Source: a virus. From it: a DNA stretch of 20,405 nt. The notes beneath the pieces were generated by a model, which saw only the letters and a list, made by a program, of their open reading frames with translations, had not been told where the DNA came from and made no database searches. The stretch lies in the IMG/VR virus record IMGVR_UViG_3300042540_000318, positions 1 to 20,405 of that record; one strand, given 5' to 3'. Positions 11,542-20,405 of the stretch are shown here, piece by piece; within the stretch, counting starts at the first letter, position 1; each line of letters begins with the position of its first letter. The position numbers and the translations under genes were made by a program.

Positions 11542-13875
11542 ATGATTAGCACCGTATCCCTTTCGTTTGATTTAACGTATACCGATCCTATTACAGGAAC
11601 GGTCATACCGCGATGCGTTGTCACCGATTCAACCGACTATGGAGCATTGTTTTCCGTGTCAACCCAACAAGCTAAGGGATACGGTGTTCTCACTTTTAAT
11701 GGAGATTTACTTCCAGCTAAAAATACTGTCGGAAATCCACTTATTGATTTAGAGGCTGGTGACACGATGGGTTTTATTGACCTTCCCCTTGATTTAAATG
11801 GGAATGTAGCAAATGGTATTTATACTTTTGAGTATAGCCTAAGACTAGACAGCTCGGGGTCTCCTTTGGCGTCTGGAACAATTACAGGAACTACAACTTT
11901 AACATCTCCTTCTGAATGGCTTTTTGATGTGTTACCTGTTGGCAGCTCTATAGACGCTGGTTCTAGCACGAATAATAGCGTGTCAGCAATATCGGTAGTA
12001 GGCTCAGATGCTGTAATTACTTTGGGTACGGCAACCACCAATGGTTTTGCCCTTATTTACGCAAACGATGTAGAGTCTCCTCAGTTTAGTGCGACTTACC
12101 CTTACTCAGGGTGTACGCAAACAACAGCTGATGTAGGCTTCATATACGACTGCGAGTACGGAAACAGCGGAACCTGGTCTGTATCTAACGCAACAGTTCT
12201 TGCAGCAACCGAGATTGTAACGAGTCTTAACTGCGTAATAAACTACCCGTCTTGGACATCTTCAAATCCATTGTTTAACCCACAGGTAATTACTACGGTT
12301 TTACCTTACCCAACATTGCCTGGAGATAACACTCCTTTGGCAACGGGTACTTATAGCGTGTCTTTATCACAGCAGATTCAGCAAACTCAAGCCTCAGGTC
12401 TTGTTGTCCTTTACAACAATTCTGTGATCAAGGAGTTTGCAGTAAGCTGCGCTGGAAGTTTGTGCGGACTTATCCCTTGCATGGAAAATCTTCGTGCGGC
12501 ACACGCGGCAGAACTTGTTCGAAACAGAATTTCTAAGTATCAAGTGTTTGTAGACAACGTAGCCCTTTATTACATAGAGGCCATGAACTACAGATCTTGC
12601 GGCGAGCTTGATAGATACCGAGACACAATCAACCTCATACAAGCTCAATTAGACGCCTCAGGATGCGACTGCGCTTGTTGTGACGACAACTCTTACTATT
12701 GGGTGTCAAACAACTCAGCTAACTCGATAATCGACGAGATTTTAGCCAACTTCCAATTCCGTTTGTACACAGGCCCCGGCGCTCCAAGCAATTCAGAGGT
12801 TGGAGTTGAGTTAGGCGCTCTTTGGCAAGATACCACAACCGGTATTCTTTATCGTTGCACAGGCGCTACACCAGGTAGTTTGACTTGGGCCTTGTATTAC
12901 GATCCTTCAGTTGTATATCCTACGGGAGCGGCTAATGGCTTGTCTATTTCGGGAAGCGACGTGGTTCTTGGTGGTTCTTTGACTGGAAATACTACCATTG
13001 ATTTAAACACAAGAAAATTAACTTTTTTAGGAACAACTGGAGACGTAGAGATTTCTGCAACTATTGGAACAGCGTTAGACGTAACAGGTACAACAAATGC
13101 TCTTAGCGTGGAAGGTACAAGTAACGCTCTTGATGTTCTTGCGACCACAAATACCGCAGCCACACTGCAAGTTGAACGGGCAACAAATAATGACGTTGCC
13201 ACAAACCTCATAGTAAGAACAAGCGTGAGCGGTGGCGCCGGTCTTGCCGGTCTTGGTTCGTCTATAGAGTTTATATCCGAAGGAACCTCTGGTTTAATCA
13301 CCACATCATCTATCGAAAGTGTTGTTACCAACCCAACAACAGGAAGAGGTCAGTTGAAGTTTAACGTGAAAGCAGCAGGGCCCACTGTGGCAAATTCGTT
13401 TACCTTAAATGATGATTTGTCTGTGACCCTTCCTTTTTATGGAAGCGGAACTTATGCGGGAACAGAAGCGTTTTCAATAGGTGTTGATTCTTCGGGTAAT
13501 ATAATTGAAACGGCTTCCAAAAAAGTATATGTAGCCCTATTAACCCAGTCTGGTACCGGAGATCCGACAGTTGTTGAGTGCGAAAACACAACGGGAGAAA
13601 CAATTACTTGGACCCGCAATGGTGAAGGCACATATAATGCGTCAATAACTAATAGTATATTTACCAGTAAAACATCCGTTAACGTTTCTTACGGAGGCAT
13701 AGCCCCTGTTGGAGGGTATGACGGAATACCAATCTGTGTAACAGGCCAAAGGCTTACATCTACTGTTGTTCAATTAAAAACATACGGAGCGCCAATTAAG
13801 ATTGGTGTTTTGCAGGACCCTGAAATAGATGACAATTTGTTGTATAATGCGACAGTAAGAATTGAAATTCATTAA
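11542..13875 (+). CDS. Fibre-like virion appendage protein with Cys-rich helical module (777 aa)
   Basis: Modular beta-rich protein. Residues 1-315 are Thr/Ser-rich and read as consecutive Ig-like or similar beta domains. Residues about 316-400 form a helical module with many Cys (CAGSLCGLIPC, then helices with SCGELDRYRDTINLI, then GCDCACCDD). At about 415-450 is a short fibre-type motif (GVELGALWQDTTTGILYRCTG). Residues about 470-660 are beta-strand repeats, including 9-residue A-L-x-V units. The last 110 residues (KKVYVALLTQSGTGDPTVVECENTTGETITW to the end) resemble a C-terminal beta module seen in appendage proteins of Bacteroidota phages. A head- or tail-fibre role in host contact is inferred from this and from its position. 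The start at 11542 lies 4 nt after the upstream stop. Confidence 0.8.
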   Translation: MISTVSLSFDLTYTDPITGTVIPRCVVTDSTDYGALFSVSTQQAKGYGVLTFNGDLLPAKNTVGNPLIDLEAGDTMGFIDLPLDLNGNVANGIYTFEYSLRLDSSGSPLASGTITGTTTLTSPSEWLFDVLPVGSSIDAGSSTNNSVSAISVVGSDAVITLGTATTNGFALIYANDVESPQFSATYPYSGCTQTTADVGFIYDCEYGNSGTWSVSNATVLAATEIVTSLNCVINYPSWTSSNPLFNPQVITTVLPYPTLPGDNTPLATGTYSVSLSQQIQQTQASGLVVLYNNSVIKEFAVSCAGSLCGLIPCMENLRAAHAAELVRNRISKYQVFVDNVALYYIEAMNYRSCGELDRYRDTINLIQAQLDASGCDCACCDDNSYYWVSNNSANSIIDEILANFQFRLYTGPGAPSNSEVGVELGALWQDTTTGILYRCTGATPGSLTWALYYDPSVVYPTGAANGLSISGSDVVLGGSLTGNTTIDLNTRKLTFLGTTGDVEISATIGTALDVTGTTNALSVEGTSNALDVLATTNTAATLQVERATNNDVATNLIVRTSVSGGAGLAGLGSSIEFISEGTSGLITTSSIESVVTNPTTGRGQLKFNVKAAGPTVANSFTLNDDLSVTLPFYGSGTYAGTEAFSIGVDSSGNIIETASKKVYVALLTQSGTGDPTVVECENTTGETITWTRNGEGTYNASITNSIFTSKTSVNVSYGGIAPVGGYDGIPICVTGQRLTSTVVQLKTYGAPIKIGVLQDPEIDDNLLYNATVRIEIH
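13069..13191 (+). repeat. Tandem 9-residue beta repeats in the appendage protein
   Basis: Residues about 510-550 read TALDVTGTTN, ALSVEGTSN, ALDVLATTN, TAATLQVERATN: a repeating A-L-x-V-x-G/A-T-x-N unit. This regularity suggests a beta-solenoid or trimeric fibre shaft segment. Confidence 0.65.
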
Positions 13876-14633: not shown

Positions 14634-15250
14634 TAACAAAACGCCAAGCAATAGAACTCATACAGCACAGGTTGACTGGAGGGGATACTCCAGAGGACTT
14701 GCGCCGCTTGTATCCACGCTCGGTTATCTCTCGTGTGATCAACATGGCTCTTGCAGACATTGTAAGCGCCAACCCATACGATGCGAGCGACATGGCGGTT
14801 CCATACGTGTTTACTCCGGCTACTGATGCTAACGGATATTACGTGATTCTAAGCCCACAGCCTGTGGCGGGGTCACTTGCTATATTTACGGTAACAGACG
14901 AGGGTACAGGAAACAACGAGTATATTATCCAGACCAAGGCCGAGGCAAACGCCATGAAGGTGTTGCGTGGGACTAACAATTCGGCGGCCATTCTTTATAA
15001 CAACAAGCTCCGTTTCAACAAGAGACCAGAGGGAGACGTAACGGTTGTTATGGTCCCTAATTTCTATCAAATGGCGGACGATGATGTATTGATCATCCCA
15101 TCTAACGAAATGGGGCGTGGGGAAGGGTATCTCTTCCAGGTGTGTATGCAGCTACTTGCGTCACAGCAGTACCAAGACGACTTGAATAACGACTCTATTG
15201 ACGCTCAGTCACTTGCAAGAGATACATCAAGATTATACAGTAACGAATGA
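14630..15250 (+). CDS. Predicted connector/ring protein 2 (206 aa)
   Basis: It starts with MITKRQAIELIQHRLTGGDTPEDLRRLYPRSVISRVINMALADIV, a helical pair typical of head-completion and adaptor proteins. A beta-rich middle follows (YVILSPQPVAGSLAIFTVTD; VTVVMVPNFYQMADDDVLIIPS) and then a helical end (GEGYLFQVCMQLLASQQYQDD). ATGA overlaps on both sides (14630 and 15247) imply coupled translation with both flanking connector candidates. The exact place in the neck cannot be told from sequence. No enzyme motif was seen. Confidence 0.85.
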   Translation: MITKRQAIELIQHRLTGGDTPEDLRRLYPRSVISRVINMALADIVSANPYDASDMAVPYVFTPATDANGYYVILSPQPVAGSLAIFTVTDEGTGNNEYIIQTKAEANAMKVLRGTNNSAAILYNNKLRFNKRPEGDVTVVMVPNFYQMADDDVLIIPSNEMGRGEGYLFQVCMQLLASQQYQDDLNNDSIDAQSLARDTSRLYSNE

Positions 15251-15978
15251 CCATTAAGAACATAAAATATATTGCCACCTCGGCCCTATATCGTTTGGGG
15301 AAAAACCCAACAGGTCGTGAGCTGAACTGGATGGTGCAGGTTGCTATTGACTACTTCAGCGAAAAGTCTCCACTAGACGGAAACGTGTCGCTGAAAACGA
15401 TTTATGGCAAGATTGACACCGGGGCGCGGGTCTTCACCATGCCCAGCGACTGCATGAGGATTACTAAGGTCGGACTAAAGTCAGGCCGTCGCATTTGGAC
15501 TCTGACTCCCGATACGTCTTTGACTTACCCGGAGGAGTTCTTTTTGTGCGAAAGTGATAAAACCGACCCTGTGATTGCGGACGGTTTGTTTCCTTATGGG
15601 TACTTTGGTTTCTTTTACAATCAGACTCAGTTTGGCTTGGGGGGTGGACGTAATCAAAACTACTACCGAATAGACGGTAACAATATTATTTTCGACCACA
15701 ACATCCCCGACGGACAGCTTGTAATCGAATACTTCTCTAACGGCTCGGATGTTAATGAGAATAGCTTGATTGATACAGCCTATGCAGAACCATTCCGTTT
15801 GTACTTGATGGCGGAGTATTGCCTTCACAAGGGCAACGCTTTAGACCGCTCAAAGTTTAAGGAGTTGCAGATGCAGTATGAGGCAGCTCAGTGGAGTGCA
15901 AACATTTTGGTTAAGGCTCCAAGACTGAGTGAGATGATTGACGCGCTTGCACAAAGTTCATCGCTTAACTTAGGATAA
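15247..15978 (+). CDS. Predicted connector/tail-adaptor protein 3 (243 aa)
   Basis: The N-terminal helix region IKYIATSALYRLGKNPTGRELNWMVQVAIDYFSEK precedes a beta-rich body with RVFTMPSDCMRITKVGLKSGRR and YYRIDGNNIIFDHNIPDGQLVIEYFSNG. The C-terminus is helical (FRLYLMAEYCLHKGNALDRSKFKELQMQYEAAQWSANILV). Alternation of polar loops, aromatic strands and a long final helix is what tail-adaptor proteins (P22 gp4 or T7 gp11 type) look like, though no homology is claimed. The stop overlaps the ATG of the tail-tip gene (TAATG at 15976-15980), linking it to that protein. Confidence 0.85.
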   Translation: MTIKNIKYIATSALYRLGKNPTGRELNWMVQVAIDYFSEKSPLDGNVSLKTIYGKIDTGARVFTMPSDCMRITKVGLKSGRRIWTLTPDTSLTYPEEFFLCESDKTDPVIADGLFPYGYFGFFYNQTQFGLGGGRNQNYYRIDGNNIIFDHNIPDGQLVIEYFSNGSDVNENSLIDTAYAEPFRLYLMAEYCLHKGNALDRSKFKELQMQYEAAQWSANILVKAPRLSEMIDALAQSSSLNLG

Positions 15979-18900
15979 TGGATTTCAACGAGATAATAAC
16001 ATTTGAGGGCGGTATAAATACCGACGACACGCCACAGGGTGTGCCTAAGGGCGACTATCGTGACTTTTCATATTGTCGCCTTGGTTACAATTCCGGGAAC
16101 GCCTTTGCGGTGGAAACTTCGGCTGGAACTATTGAGATTAACAATAATGATATTGAGCCTGAAGACAAAGTTCTTGGGGCCGCTCAATGGCTCAAGGAAA
16201 ATGCGATTGTTTATTTTCTATACAAAGACACAGGGGTTCATGAGATTTGGGTTTACTATATCACGACTCAGACCCATCAAGTGGTGGTTCAAGACGCGGT
16301 ATTAAACTTCAGCCCAGACTGGCCAGTCTTCCATGCAAATGTTATTGACGATATCCTAAAGTGGACCGACGGTCGGTGGGACCCGGATATGTATGAAACG
16401 GATGGAACACGTCTTTTCAACCCTCCATATCAAATAAACCTACGCAAGGCTCTTGATAATTTTTACACTATTATCGACCTTCAGACCATAGACGCGATTA
16501 AGTGGCCAATGGAGCCGCCTATTGTTAGTTATTTTACGGACACAACACGTAACGACAATAAGTTACGAAACAAACTTTTTAAGTTCATAATTCAACCGAT
16601 ATATGAAAACGGAGAGCTTGGTGTTTGGTCGATGTATTCCAATTTGGCACTGCCCGACCAGTCTGAACTTGTTAGTGGAACTAACTGGGTATTTCTTAAT
16701 AACGACAACGTAATTAGGATTCAGTTTGATACAGGTCCAAAGGTTATTCGAGGATTTAATTTAGCGGTTCAGCAGTACGACAAGGACTCTTTTGGAACGG
16801 TTCCTCCGTTTGGGGTCTTTTTGCAGTTAGACAAGGTGCTTGACAACATAAACGACAATGCCTTTCACACCGTTAACTTTTATGGGGGTGTTGCCACGAG
16901 CGCGGCGGTTGATGTGTTCAAGAACTACGACAGGCTTCCAATAGTTGCTGACTGCCAAGAATATCTTCCAACCAACCAATTAACCTATTCTAACTTTAGA
17001 GAGGGGTACGACAAGCCCACCGACGTTCCATTCATATTAGATGTTCAGATGGGGTATGACGTCAATGAGATTGACTGGAACCCTGCGGATTTAAGGACAC
17101 TGTTTAATGCGATAATATCAGACGGCAGTACGGTTGGGTATCCAAACCCTGGATTTTATATTAATTATGATGGAAATGCATATGCGGATGTACAAAATCA
17201 ACTTATTTTCCAAGTCGGAGACATAATACAATTAGTTACATGGTCGGGTTCTACGACAAACCCATATGGTAATCAACGCTTGTTTTATAGTATATCTCAA
17301 GAAGATATAGAAACAGCCCTTTCGTTTCCGGCCTTTTTTGATCAAAACGCATACATATTTCAACTAATCGGCGACTCGTTTATACAGCAGTGGGACGCCA
17401 CAGGGTTTTATGAAATACCGGGAGTAGTCACGCCTTATAGTACTGACGGGATGCGGTATTACGCAAAAAGAAGGCCGGGATTTAATGGTTCCATAGAAGC
17501 ATCGGCTCTCCAAATCGGTACTAGCAAGATTATATTAGGGGGTGACTTTACAGTGGTTTCGGAGGTTCAGGCAAATAGAATATTTAGATTATCCAATATC
17601 GGAGATATAGACACATCGTTTTCAGATAATATAGGAACCGGATTTAACGATACGGTTTTAGCCATAGACATTCAACCCGACGATTATATATTGGTAGGGG
17701 GTAAGTTTACCGAGTTTAATGGCGCCTCTAGAAACGGGATAACAATGCTTGGCCCAGACGGATGGTTAGAGTTGGGCTTTAATGTTGGGACCGGGTTCAA
17801 TGGTGATGTATACGCCATAAAGATACAACCCGATGGAAAAATTTTAGTTGGTGGGAATTTTACAAGTTATGATGGAGATTCAAGCAATTTAATTGCTCGT
17901 CTAAACGGAGACGGTTCCATAGATCCTACCTTTACATCTCCAGTTACTAGTGTCGTTCCAGGGTCAAGTGCCGTATACGCGATAGATATCCAATCATCTG
18001 GGAAGATAATAGTGGGAGGAGCCTTCCTTGGTATACCGTCCTCGGCGTCTAATTATTTAGCTAGGTTAAACACTGACGGGTCATGCGACGCAACTTTTAC
18101 CGGAAACCCTAACGGCACTGTGTTTACTATTGATATTAGGCCAACTTCCCCCACAGATGAAGTATTTATTGGCGGTAGCTTCACCACTTGTAACACTGCC
18201 TCAAGAAATAGAATTGCAAGGTTAGACATCGACGGAGCGTTAGACGCCACATTCAGCCCAGGCACAGGGTTCGATGACTTGGTGAAGTCGGTTAATTTGG
18301 TCGGTGGTGATTTATATGTTTTAGGAAGATTCACAGACTATACCGGAAACACTGCTAACAAAGTAGTAGTTATAAATGAAACTACTGCTGCATTTATTTC
18401 AAGCGCTCCTAACGCCTTTACTTTTGACGGCTCCCCAACCTTAAGTTATCCAAGATCCTTTCTACAGCTTTCGGGTCAGTTTTGGGTGATGGGTGACTTT
18501 ACTTATTTTGATATTCCATATGATATAAATAGATTAATTCGTTTTGATTTTAGTCCAATATGGGACATCTTAGGGTCAGGAGGGGTGAATAATATCCTAC
18601 CATTTCAGAGCAAACCTTTAAAAGGTTTGGACTACGATAAGGTAACAGGAGCCGTCCCAAGCCTTAAGGTAGGGGCGACCCACGAGTTTGGTATTGTTTA
18701 CGGAGACAGGGCGTATAGAGACAGCACGGTTTACACCATAGAAGACATGAATCTTTTTGTTCCATGGTTCTATGACATAGCTACCTCTGGAGTGTTAGGT
18801 AATTTCAAGAATGCGTTCACCATAACCCCGAATATTACAATTAATCACGTACCCCCTGTTTGGGCTGATAGGTACTGGATAGTTGCTAAACCTGCTACGG

Positions 18901-20405
18901 AAATTTTAAGTTTTGGTCAGTATGTAACAAATAATAACGACGGGACCGCAACCTATCAAGAGTCTGTAAGCTTGACCGGGGTAGGAAATGGTAAAAGATA
19001 TAAAATATATATCGACAACTGGTACGAAAGGGAAAACAAAGGGGCTAACGTCAGACACGAAATCAAGGTTGGCGATAAGCTTAGGTTTAAGAGGTCAAAC
19101 TTTTATTATCTACAATACTTACCATACATAGAGCTTGACATTGTAGGGGTGGAACTTAACGCTGGTAACGACGGAAGGACGGCTGTATATACAAATCTTT
19201 TTGACAGAAACATCATATCTATTGCGGATGACTTTGCACAATCCGGAAATTTACTGTTTGGACAAGAGATTGAAATCTATACTCCCCGACCATCTGTAGA
19301 TGACACGGGTAACATATTCGTCTCTACATGGAAAGACGTCACAGAGTCTATTCCGATTATAAACGCCCACACCGAAGATAGGTCCCACGGATCTCCTGCT
19401 CAATACTATATTCAGGTTGGAAACTTTACAGGAACCGATGTGTTTTATATCACAGGAGACCAAAGTAAGTTAAATGGACTTACCGGGGCTAATATAACTG
19501 TACACTATGCGGACGGAAGCTTTGACCCGCCGAGTGTGACAAACATTACATCCGCGATATACAATAGTCTTGAGAATATAACGACTCTCCAACTATCTAC
19601 CGAGTCTGCTGACCCAACGATAGCGTATATCACAATAAACAATCAGGATCAGGTAGTTAATGCTTTAGCAAACGTAACCCCTGCTAGTTATTCGATAAAC
19701 TATGGAGACGTTTATCTAAGGCTTAGGAACAGCAGAAACGGAACCTTTGGAGTACAGGATGAGTTCTATTACTTCATGGAGGACTTTAACTACTCCGACT
19801 ATTATCCAAGCAACATCCATAATGACGGAAGGCTAAGGATTGAAGATCAAAACGCCAAGATGGTTCACCGCAAGGCGTCTTCTATTCATTCGGACTCTTT
19901 TATCTTGGGAACCCAGATAAACGGACTTTCCTCATTCGCCCTCGACAATCAGAATATTGAGGACATGAACCCTCTGTATGGAGAGATTGTAAGGACGTAT
20001 ATGTCGGGCCGAGAGGGTAAGACCTTGAAGTGTCTGCAACCAAAGAGAGAGAACTCGATATACATTCAATATTATCCAAACGAGGTGGGCTCTGACTCAA
20101 GTGTTCGTGTATCGAACAAGACGTTTGCGTCATGGTTTGACTACAAGAGTTTATTTGGATGTACAGACGCAGGAGCGACGGCACTCCTCCCAAACGGTTC
20201 GGTCATGTACTTTGACAACAACTCCGGGGTGTTTATTTACTCAGGTGGAAACGGTCAAATGATAGTGAGCGAAATAGACCCCGACACAGGCAAGGACTAC
20301 AAGTTCAGAACCAAGACTAAGCAATTAGCCAAGGCTTACAATGAGAGTGTAAACCCTCTTGTTAGGACCTATATAAACGAAACGGTTGGCGAGGTAGGCT
20401 TTGCG
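15978..20405 (+). CDS. Giant tail-tip (muzzle/nozzle-like) protein with a seven-blade propeller insert, partial (at least 1476 aa)
   Basis: I translated the frame from ATG 15978 to the window end without meeting a stop, so the C-terminus is missing. The N-terminus (ITFEGGINTDDTPQGVPKGDYRDFSY) and the position after three connector candidates recall the nozzle proteins that close podoviral tails (T7 gp12, P22 gp10) and the crAss-like muzzle protein. A core segment ending near residue 350 (LPIVADCQEYLP ... FREGYDKP) resumes near 885 with LKVGATHEFGIVYGDRAYRDSTVYTIEDMNLFVPWF. Between them lie a beta-rich region (about 370-490) and seven delta-60-type repeats (about 490-870). After 885 the protein is again beta-rich and Tyr/Asn-rich. 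Codons in the insert look more AT-rich than in the flanks. Function as a tail plug is inferred. Confidence 0.9.
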   Translation, partial: MDFNEIITFEGGINTDDTPQGVPKGDYRDFSYCRLGYNSGNAFAVETSAGTIEINNNDIEPEDKVLGAAQWLKENAIVYFLYKDTGVHEIWVYYITTQTHQVVVQDAVLNFSPDWPVFHANVIDDILKWTDGRWDPDMYETDGTRLFNPPYQINLRKALDNFYTIIDLQTIDAIKWPMEPPIVSYFTDTTRNDNKLRNKLFKFIIQPIYENGELGVWSMYSNLALPDQSELVSGTNWVFLNNDNVIRIQFDTGPKVIRGFNLAVQQYDKDSFGTVPPFGVFLQLDKVLDNINDNAFHTVNFYGGVATSAAVDVFKNYDRLPIVADCQEYLPTNQLTYSNFREGYDKPTDVPFILDVQMGYDVNEIDWNPADLRTLFNAIISDGSTVGYPNPGFYINYDGNAYADVQNQLIFQVGDIIQLVTWSGSTTNPYGNQRLFYSISQEDIETALSFPAFFDQNAYIFQLIGDSFIQQWDATGFYEIPGVVTPYSTDGMRYYAKRRPGFNGSIEASALQIGTSKIILGGDFTVVSEVQANRIFRLSNIGDIDTSFSDNIGTGFNDTVLAIDIQPDDYILVGGKFTEFNGASRNGITMLGPDGWLELGFNVGTGFNGDVYAIKIQPDGKILVGGNFTSYDGDSSNLIARLNGDGSIDPTFTSPVTSVVPGSSAVYAIDIQSSGKIIVGGAFLGIPSSASNYLARLNTDGSCDATFTGNPNGTVFTIDIRPTSPTDEVFIGGSFTTCNTASRNRIARLDIDGALDATFSPGTGFDDLVKSVNLVGGDLYVLGRFTDYTGNTANKVVVINETTAAFISSAPNAFTFDGSPTLSYPRSFLQLSGQFWVMGDFTYFDIPYDINRLIRFDFSPIWDILGSGGVNNILPFQSKPLKGLDYDKVTGAVPSLKVGATHEFGIVYGDRAYRDSTVYTIEDMNLFVPWFYDIATSGVLGNFKNAFTITPNITINHVPPVWADRYWIVAKPATEILSFGQYVTNNNDGTATYQESVSLTGVGNGKRYKIYIDNWYERENKGANVRHEIKVGDKLRFKRSNFYYLQYLPYIELDIVGVELNAGNDGRTAVYTNLFDRNIISIADDFAQSGNLLFGQEIEIYTPRPSVDDTGNIFVSTWKDVTESIPIINAHTEDRSHGSPAQYYIQVGNFTGTDVFYITGDQSKLNGLTGANITVHYADGSFDPPSVTNITSAIYNSLENITTLQLSTESADPTIAYITINNQDQVVNALANVTPASYSINYGDVYLRLRNSRNGTFGVQDEFYYFMEDFNYSDYYPSNIHNDGRLRIEDQNAKMVHRKASSIHSDSFILGTQINGLSSFALDNQNIEDMNPLYGEIVRTYMSGREGKTLKCLQPKRENSIYIQYYPNEVGSDSSVRVSNKTFASWFDYKSLFGCTDAGATALLPNGSVMYFDNNSGVFIYSGGNGQMIVSEIDPDTGKDYKFRTKTKQLAKAYNESVNPLVRTYINETVGEVGFA
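17445..18587 (+). repeat. Seven delta-60-type repeats encoding a predicted beta-propeller
   Basis: The signature (I/V)-x-V-G-G-x-F-T occurs seven times, with its first Gly position at residues 521, 574, 625, 680, 732, 782 and 838 (spacing 53, 51, 55, 52, 50 and 56). Copies 2-3 are canonical (IQPDDYILVGGKFT, IQPDGKILVGGNFT), with the linker IARLNGDGSIDPTF typical of delta-60 repeats (TIGR02608 / DUF5122). Copies 6 and 7 are degenerate (VLGRFT, VMGDFT). Seven units of about 53 residues equal one closed seven-bladed propeller. Confidence 0.8.

Follow-up and report, generated by a model that had tools for sequence, protein, structure and literature searches.

A predicted seven-bladed delta-60 propeller nested in a muzzle-type tail-tip protein of a crAss-like phage relative

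Background

Does a phage tail protein that contains a run of bacterial-type repeats carry a complete foreign domain and, if so, how was this domain gained and what might it do at the tail tip? The question is raised by a virus record of IMG/VR (IMGVR_UViG_3300042540_000318, positions 1 to 20,405), the whole 20,405-nucleotide stretch of which is referred to below as the window. A sequence-only reading of this DNA proposed that seven copies of the delta-60 signature, lying inside a giant tail protein, make up a whole propeller that was acquired as a unit and could serve as a receptor- or glycan-binding head, as a gate for the tail channel or as a structural collar.

The muzzle protein gp44 of PhicrAss001 is a hexamer that gates the tail channel (Bayfield et al. 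2023, PMC10172136). It comprises a ring-joining domain, a seven-bladed propeller that bears the gate loop, the domains IG1 and IG2 and a crass domain; the core propeller is T7-nozzle-like, IG2 is given as residues 318-1021, and length variation of muzzles through insertions in the IG2 and crass domains has already been reported (PMC10172136).

Results and discussion

The host protein and the insertion site

The features on which the argument draws are as follows (window coordinates, strand; residues are those of the muzzle-type protein).

15247..15978, +: tail protein directly 5' of the muzzle gene, in the ring-protein position (phrog_394 tail protein, E=8.3e-6)
15978..20405, +: muzzle-type tail-tip protein ORF, 1476 aa, open at the contig end (phrog_14478, gp44 profile, full-length relatives)
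15978..17015, +: N-terminal core, residues 1-346 (aligned with gp44 1-316)
17016..17486, +: IG2-site receiver segment, residues 347-503 (carrier/non-carrier alignments; gp44 about 317-365 by profile alignment)
17445..18587, +: seven-bladed delta-60 (DUF5122) propeller as predicted, residues 490-870 (Pfam/NCBIfam, AlphaFold2, Foldseek)
17487..18614, +: interval missing in the sister non-carrier, residues about 504-879 (junction alignment; ends uncertain by some 10 residues)
18615..19307, +: host-domain continuation YDKVTxAxPSLKVGATHEFGIVYGDRAYRD... (aligned with gp44 365 onward)

Sequence homology identifies the host protein as the muzzle of a relative of the crAss-like phages. The ORF matches the virion structural protein family phrog_14478 (E=1.1e-25), the flanks of the delta-60 block match virion structural proteins of phi38:1, elemoviruses and others, and a profile of 52 relatives is collinear with a profile of nine gp44-type muzzles (E=1.9e-13, 98% probability, 1-1210 against 1-1330), two rows of which (cr273 and cr109) contain in-frame stops. 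With hhalign against gp44 as a single sequence only the N-terminus aligned, and the site fragment alone gave no significant match to gp44. The nearest named muzzle relatives (phi38:1, Pervagoviridae; elemoviruses) are filed outside the order Crassvirales. The position of the gene is that of a crAss-like muzzle: within the tail module it directly follows the gene for the ring/tail tubular protein, and the order of tail tubular protein and muzzle is the same in the window, crAss001 and phi14:2.

Two side observations concern these genes and their surroundings. Under translation table 11 the cr273 muzzle gene (L170:2524-7311) has 9 and the cr109 muzzle gene (L172:1884-5996) 18 in-frame stops, which would fit stop-codon recoding, and the window encodes, in the stretch that separates its head genes from the tail module, a 777-aa fibre-like protein without a PHROG match (11542-13875).

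The segments on either side of the block had been taken for continuous tail-tip core, and this holds: muzzle sequence is found on both sides, and relatives that do not carry the block join across it. By homology to gp44, residues 1-346 would represent the ring-joining part and the first blades of the core propeller; they are 89-93% identical between carriers of the block (dN 0.04-0.08). Full-length relatives measure 1754-1817 aa with the block and about 1440-1470 aa without it. Near residue 86 (window about 16233-16240) the core of the three other carriers (L006, L010 and L090) contains a run rich in proline (such as PPPVPPFPPPPIPH), which is absent in the window and in the aligned non-carriers.

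The insertion site lies between 'GNRIVLGNYVEGYN' and 'LKSNRGYEVGIVYLDD' of phi38:1 and corresponds by alignment to gp44 about 317-365, where IG2 begins; in the alignments, segment 347-503 is common to carriers and close non-carriers. In phi38:1 and L032 the site is 25-31 aa long; close non-carriers have 147-169 aa there and most distant relatives about 200-250, with one elemovirus reaching 335 and the compared carriers 541-558. As far as the alignments tell, more distant relatives have unrelated inserts, or almost nothing, at this site. In L008, L009 and most of L017-L088 it is occupied by inserts of about 200-335 aa that do not include the delta-60 block.

The delta-60 block and its predicted fold

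Residues 490-870 match DUF5122 (PF17164) of Pfam with E=4.1e-44 (149 bits, cut-off 27), five stretches of the block doing so independently, and the delta-60 model TIGR02608 of NCBIfam with E=2.5e-26 (91 bits, cut-off 76.5), both above the curated cut-offs. The seven copies first noted by eye, 50-56 residues apart, were recovered exactly, the motif starting at residues 518, 571, 622, 677, 729, 779 and 835 (spacing 53, 51, 55, 52, 50 and 56). Repeats 6 and 7 are degenerate and fall under the Pfam threshold, and their positions, together with GxF(T) and the strand pattern that follows it, are retained in all four carriers. The Por_Secre_tail sorting domain, the mark of bacterial-type export, had no match in the muzzle ORF (Pfam/NCBIfam), nor did the BACON domain in the muzzle protein (Pfam).

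AlphaFold2 modelling of residues 344-921 with 13 aligned sequences gave a closed ring with a mean pLDDT of 77.7 and a pTM of 0.72, most of blades 1-6 lying at about 80-97 and blade 7 mostly at about 48-73. In Foldseek the block model matches seven-bladed WD40 proteins (5yzv, WDR5) with a target-normalised TM of 0.72-0.75, and a larger model of residues 1-1190, which is poor outside the block (pTM 0.43), matches the solved seven-bladed designed propeller 7big (TM 0.76, 3.7 Å). The proposal that seven blades form a closed ring, which a prediction lacking such a ring would have refuted, is thus well supported by the model and by its matches to 7big and the WD40 rings, blade 7, of low confidence, being the weakest part of the prediction. 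PDB sequence searches with the block and with the muzzle returned nothing useful. As a gp44-type muzzle already has a core propeller of its own, the block would be a second one, situated in the IG2 region, and for this reason a role as gate for the tail channel, one of the three first offered, is unlikely.

Distribution and origin

Among 38 close-family loci three carriers were found (on the same contigs as L006, L010 and L090), making four with the window. A tree built from 33 distinct muzzles places the four carriers in a single clade (100/100) that is nested within the 29 non-carriers, and the non-carrier L128 is its sister (100/100). Compared with L128, the window muzzle has about 376 extra residues (504-879) at an apparent hairpin turn, in a junction alignment that took in L128, L130, L132, L140 and L142. 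No DUF5122 match was found elsewhere in four non-carrier genome records, which may be incomplete. Since the carriers form one clade nested among non-carriers, the simplest account is that the block was gained once, as a unit, much as the sequence-only reading had it; exactly this block is absent from the relatives.

It is very improbable that the block instead belongs to the ancestral muzzle core and has been lost from most relatives. A clean junction would also result from deletion, but ancestral presence would need many independent losses, given the nested position of the carriers and their non-carrier sister, and the distant relatives and gp44 lack the block as well. Ancestry of the block had been set beforehand as the refutation of a later gain; 29 of the 33 related muzzles are without it, and we reject ancestry on the tree and the distribution.

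A scan of bacterial and archaeal genomes with the block yielded 20 loci, 32-45% identical to it, 19 of which are from Bacteroidota, chiefly Flavobacterium and other Flavobacteriales but also Cytophagales. A T9SS sorting domain lies above the cut-off in four of the five bacterial relatives checked and is sub-threshold in the fifth. On this sequence evidence the nearest cellular relatives are T9SS-exported or surface proteins of Bacteroidota, which is also the phylum of the hosts of the nearest cultured phages, and we infer that transfer ran from Bacteroidota to phage. Least probable of all is an origin by internal duplication of the core propeller that the muzzle already has: both parts are propellers, but DUF5122 and TIGR02608 are matched by the block only and its best relatives are the bacterial delta-60 proteins just described, so that family matches lend this origin no support.

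Divergence, selection and codon use

Between carriers, dN is 0.41-0.57 in the block against 0.04-0.09 in the N- and C-terminal core, and the rate of divergence of the block is 5-14 times that of the muzzle core. In protein sequence the blocks are about 50% different from carrier to carrier; they are open, in frame and seven-bladed in all four, blade identity being highest in blade 3 (72%) and lowest in blades 6-7 (28-35%; blade 7, 28%; window 17475-18581). With a dN/dS of about 0.2 (0.18-0.25 where computable) the block is under purifying selection, the estimates being rough because synonymous sites are near saturation throughout.

The block had also appeared richer in ATA, TTA and AGA codons than its flanks, which was read as later acquisition or faster divergence. 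Compared with the core of the same gene, TTA (p=0.005) and AGA (p=0.03) are indeed enriched and ATA is not significantly so (p=0.2). Faster divergence is borne out by dN; codon use is weak evidence of later acquisition, since blocks that are about 50% diverged speak for an old insertion and since GC3 is similar in other variable segments (0.37 in the block, 0.36 in the preceding segment). Nor does codon bias differ significantly between the block and other variable segments of the gene, and foreign codon use is unconvincing as proof of recent transfer.

In a second variable segment, residues 1111-1245 (window 19308-19712), L006 and L090 are 87% identical (pS 0.46), against 61-64% in other pairs (pS 0.80-0.90); a recent exchange of this segment between carriers is probable from these sequences.

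Possible roles of the propeller

As 29 relatives do without the block, it is dispensable for tail function. We consider host contact its most likely role, with a structural collar next, and favour, with modest confidence, the reading that the block is a captured adhesin-like propeller that forms a host-contact head round the tail tip. The ancestor of the carrier clade would have acquired the delta-60 propeller once, spliced into a hairpin of the muzzle IG2 region. The muzzle would cap and gate the tail and, since it is hexameric by homology, up to six extra propellers would encircle the distal tail outside the channel, an external position drawn from gp44 homology only because the host part of the large AlphaFold2 model is poor. 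Each propeller might bind a surface glycan or protein of the Bacteroidota host and help the muzzle to settle on the outer membrane; the IG2 and crass domains would then shift and the gate of the core propeller would open. The hexamer, the external position, the binding and this coupling to the gate are presumed. Docking of the IG and crass domains on the cell, thereby opening the gate, has been proposed (PMC10172136; review PMC10136315), and a propeller in IG2 would enlarge the cell-contact surface. Host contact is favoured by the exported relatives in Bacteroidota, the fast divergence, the muzzle homology and the single gain, and by another phage that has a free-standing delta-60 gene directly downstream of its tail sheath gene. 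The fast divergence also fits relaxed constraint, and the literature searched yielded no ligand or binding datum for delta-60 propellers.

A collar or spacer that widens or stiffens the tail tip, or touches the tail fibres, with no host binding, is in our view rather unlikely. Propellers are common scaffolds, bulk is tolerated at a site that ranges from 25 to 558 residues across relatives, and the gradient from blade 3 to blades 6-7 could mark a virion interface. Divergence so much faster than that of the core would, however, be unusual for an interface fitting conserved partners, and the sister of the carrier clade is entirely without the block.

More improbable still is a hitch-hiking, tolerated insertion of little function that survived by chance in one clade. 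A single gain, seen in 4 of 33 distinct muzzles, would suit such an insertion, as would the rough selection estimates that follow from synonymous saturation, but in none of the four carriers has the block lost its open reading frame, although its protein sequence has diverged by about 50%; it has kept seven blades in each and has the dN/dS of a sequence under purifying selection.

Host contact may be taken one step further, in a version that we regard as possible rather than probable: the propeller, captured from an exported Bacteroidota surface protein, would form a six-fold ring on a muzzle whose IG2 site would be a general docking slot for exchangeable host-contact domains beside the ejection gate. 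If this were true, receptor binding would be wired directly into the gate protein and not into fibres.

Comparison with known systems

Like PhicrAss001 gp44 (PMC10172136), to which its homology is collinear and full-length, the window muzzle is encoded by the last of the tail genes, following that of the ring/tail tubular protein. In gp44 the seven-bladed core propeller is the only one and the site spans about 50 residues, whereas the window muzzle has about 540 residues there, including a second propeller of another family. Nozzles of the T7 gp12 type likewise hold a propeller within a tail-tip protein, but theirs is the core propeller round the channel, while the delta-60 block is additional and of a different sequence family. 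The Bacteroidota delta-60/DUF5122 proteins (TIGR02608, PF17164) have the same repeat and spacing, the nearest with 36-45% identity over most of the propeller. Those examined stand alone and are exported; most have a T9SS sorting domain and several have 13-14 repeats, whereas the block is exactly one seven-blade unit, without export signals, nested in a tail protein. In crAss-like phages, tandem BACON repeats occur in tail-associated proteins, and a role in host binding has been suggested for these repeats (de Jonge et al. 2019, PMC6949934); like the block they are a Bacteroidota-type surface domain recruited to a tail-associated protein, and unlike it they are a different domain, in tandem arrays and not a nested muzzle insertion (PMC6949934).

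Other phage delta-60 proteins exist, and BFVD holds one named 'Delta-60 repeat'. L094:3504-7070 encodes an 1188-aa protein of almost nothing but delta-60 repeats, directly downstream of a tail sheath gene, with a second delta-60 ORF near 92-94 kb of the same 153-kb record. Free-standing proteins are further found in L095:7893-10205 (770 aa), L097-L100 and L102:7551-12023 (1490 aa), and the neighbours of the genes in L095 and L102 matched no tail family among those tested. In the literature searched, the terms 'delta-60 repeat' with 'phage', and delta-60 with repeat and propeller, gave nothing, DUF5122 gave a modelling paper only, and no paper on the function of delta-60 propellers was found.

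Recruitment of Bacteroidota domains and phage delta-60 proteins are thus known, and the novelty lies in a complete delta-60 ring, as predicted, that forms a nested second propeller in a muzzle. IG2 and crass insertions have so far been reported as length variation, with no identified example like this one in the literature found; here an insert has a name, a bacterial family, a position in a tree and close relatives with an empty site. The function of a muzzle insertion can therefore be tested by comparing carriers with non-carriers, and delta-60 propellers gain a defined setting.
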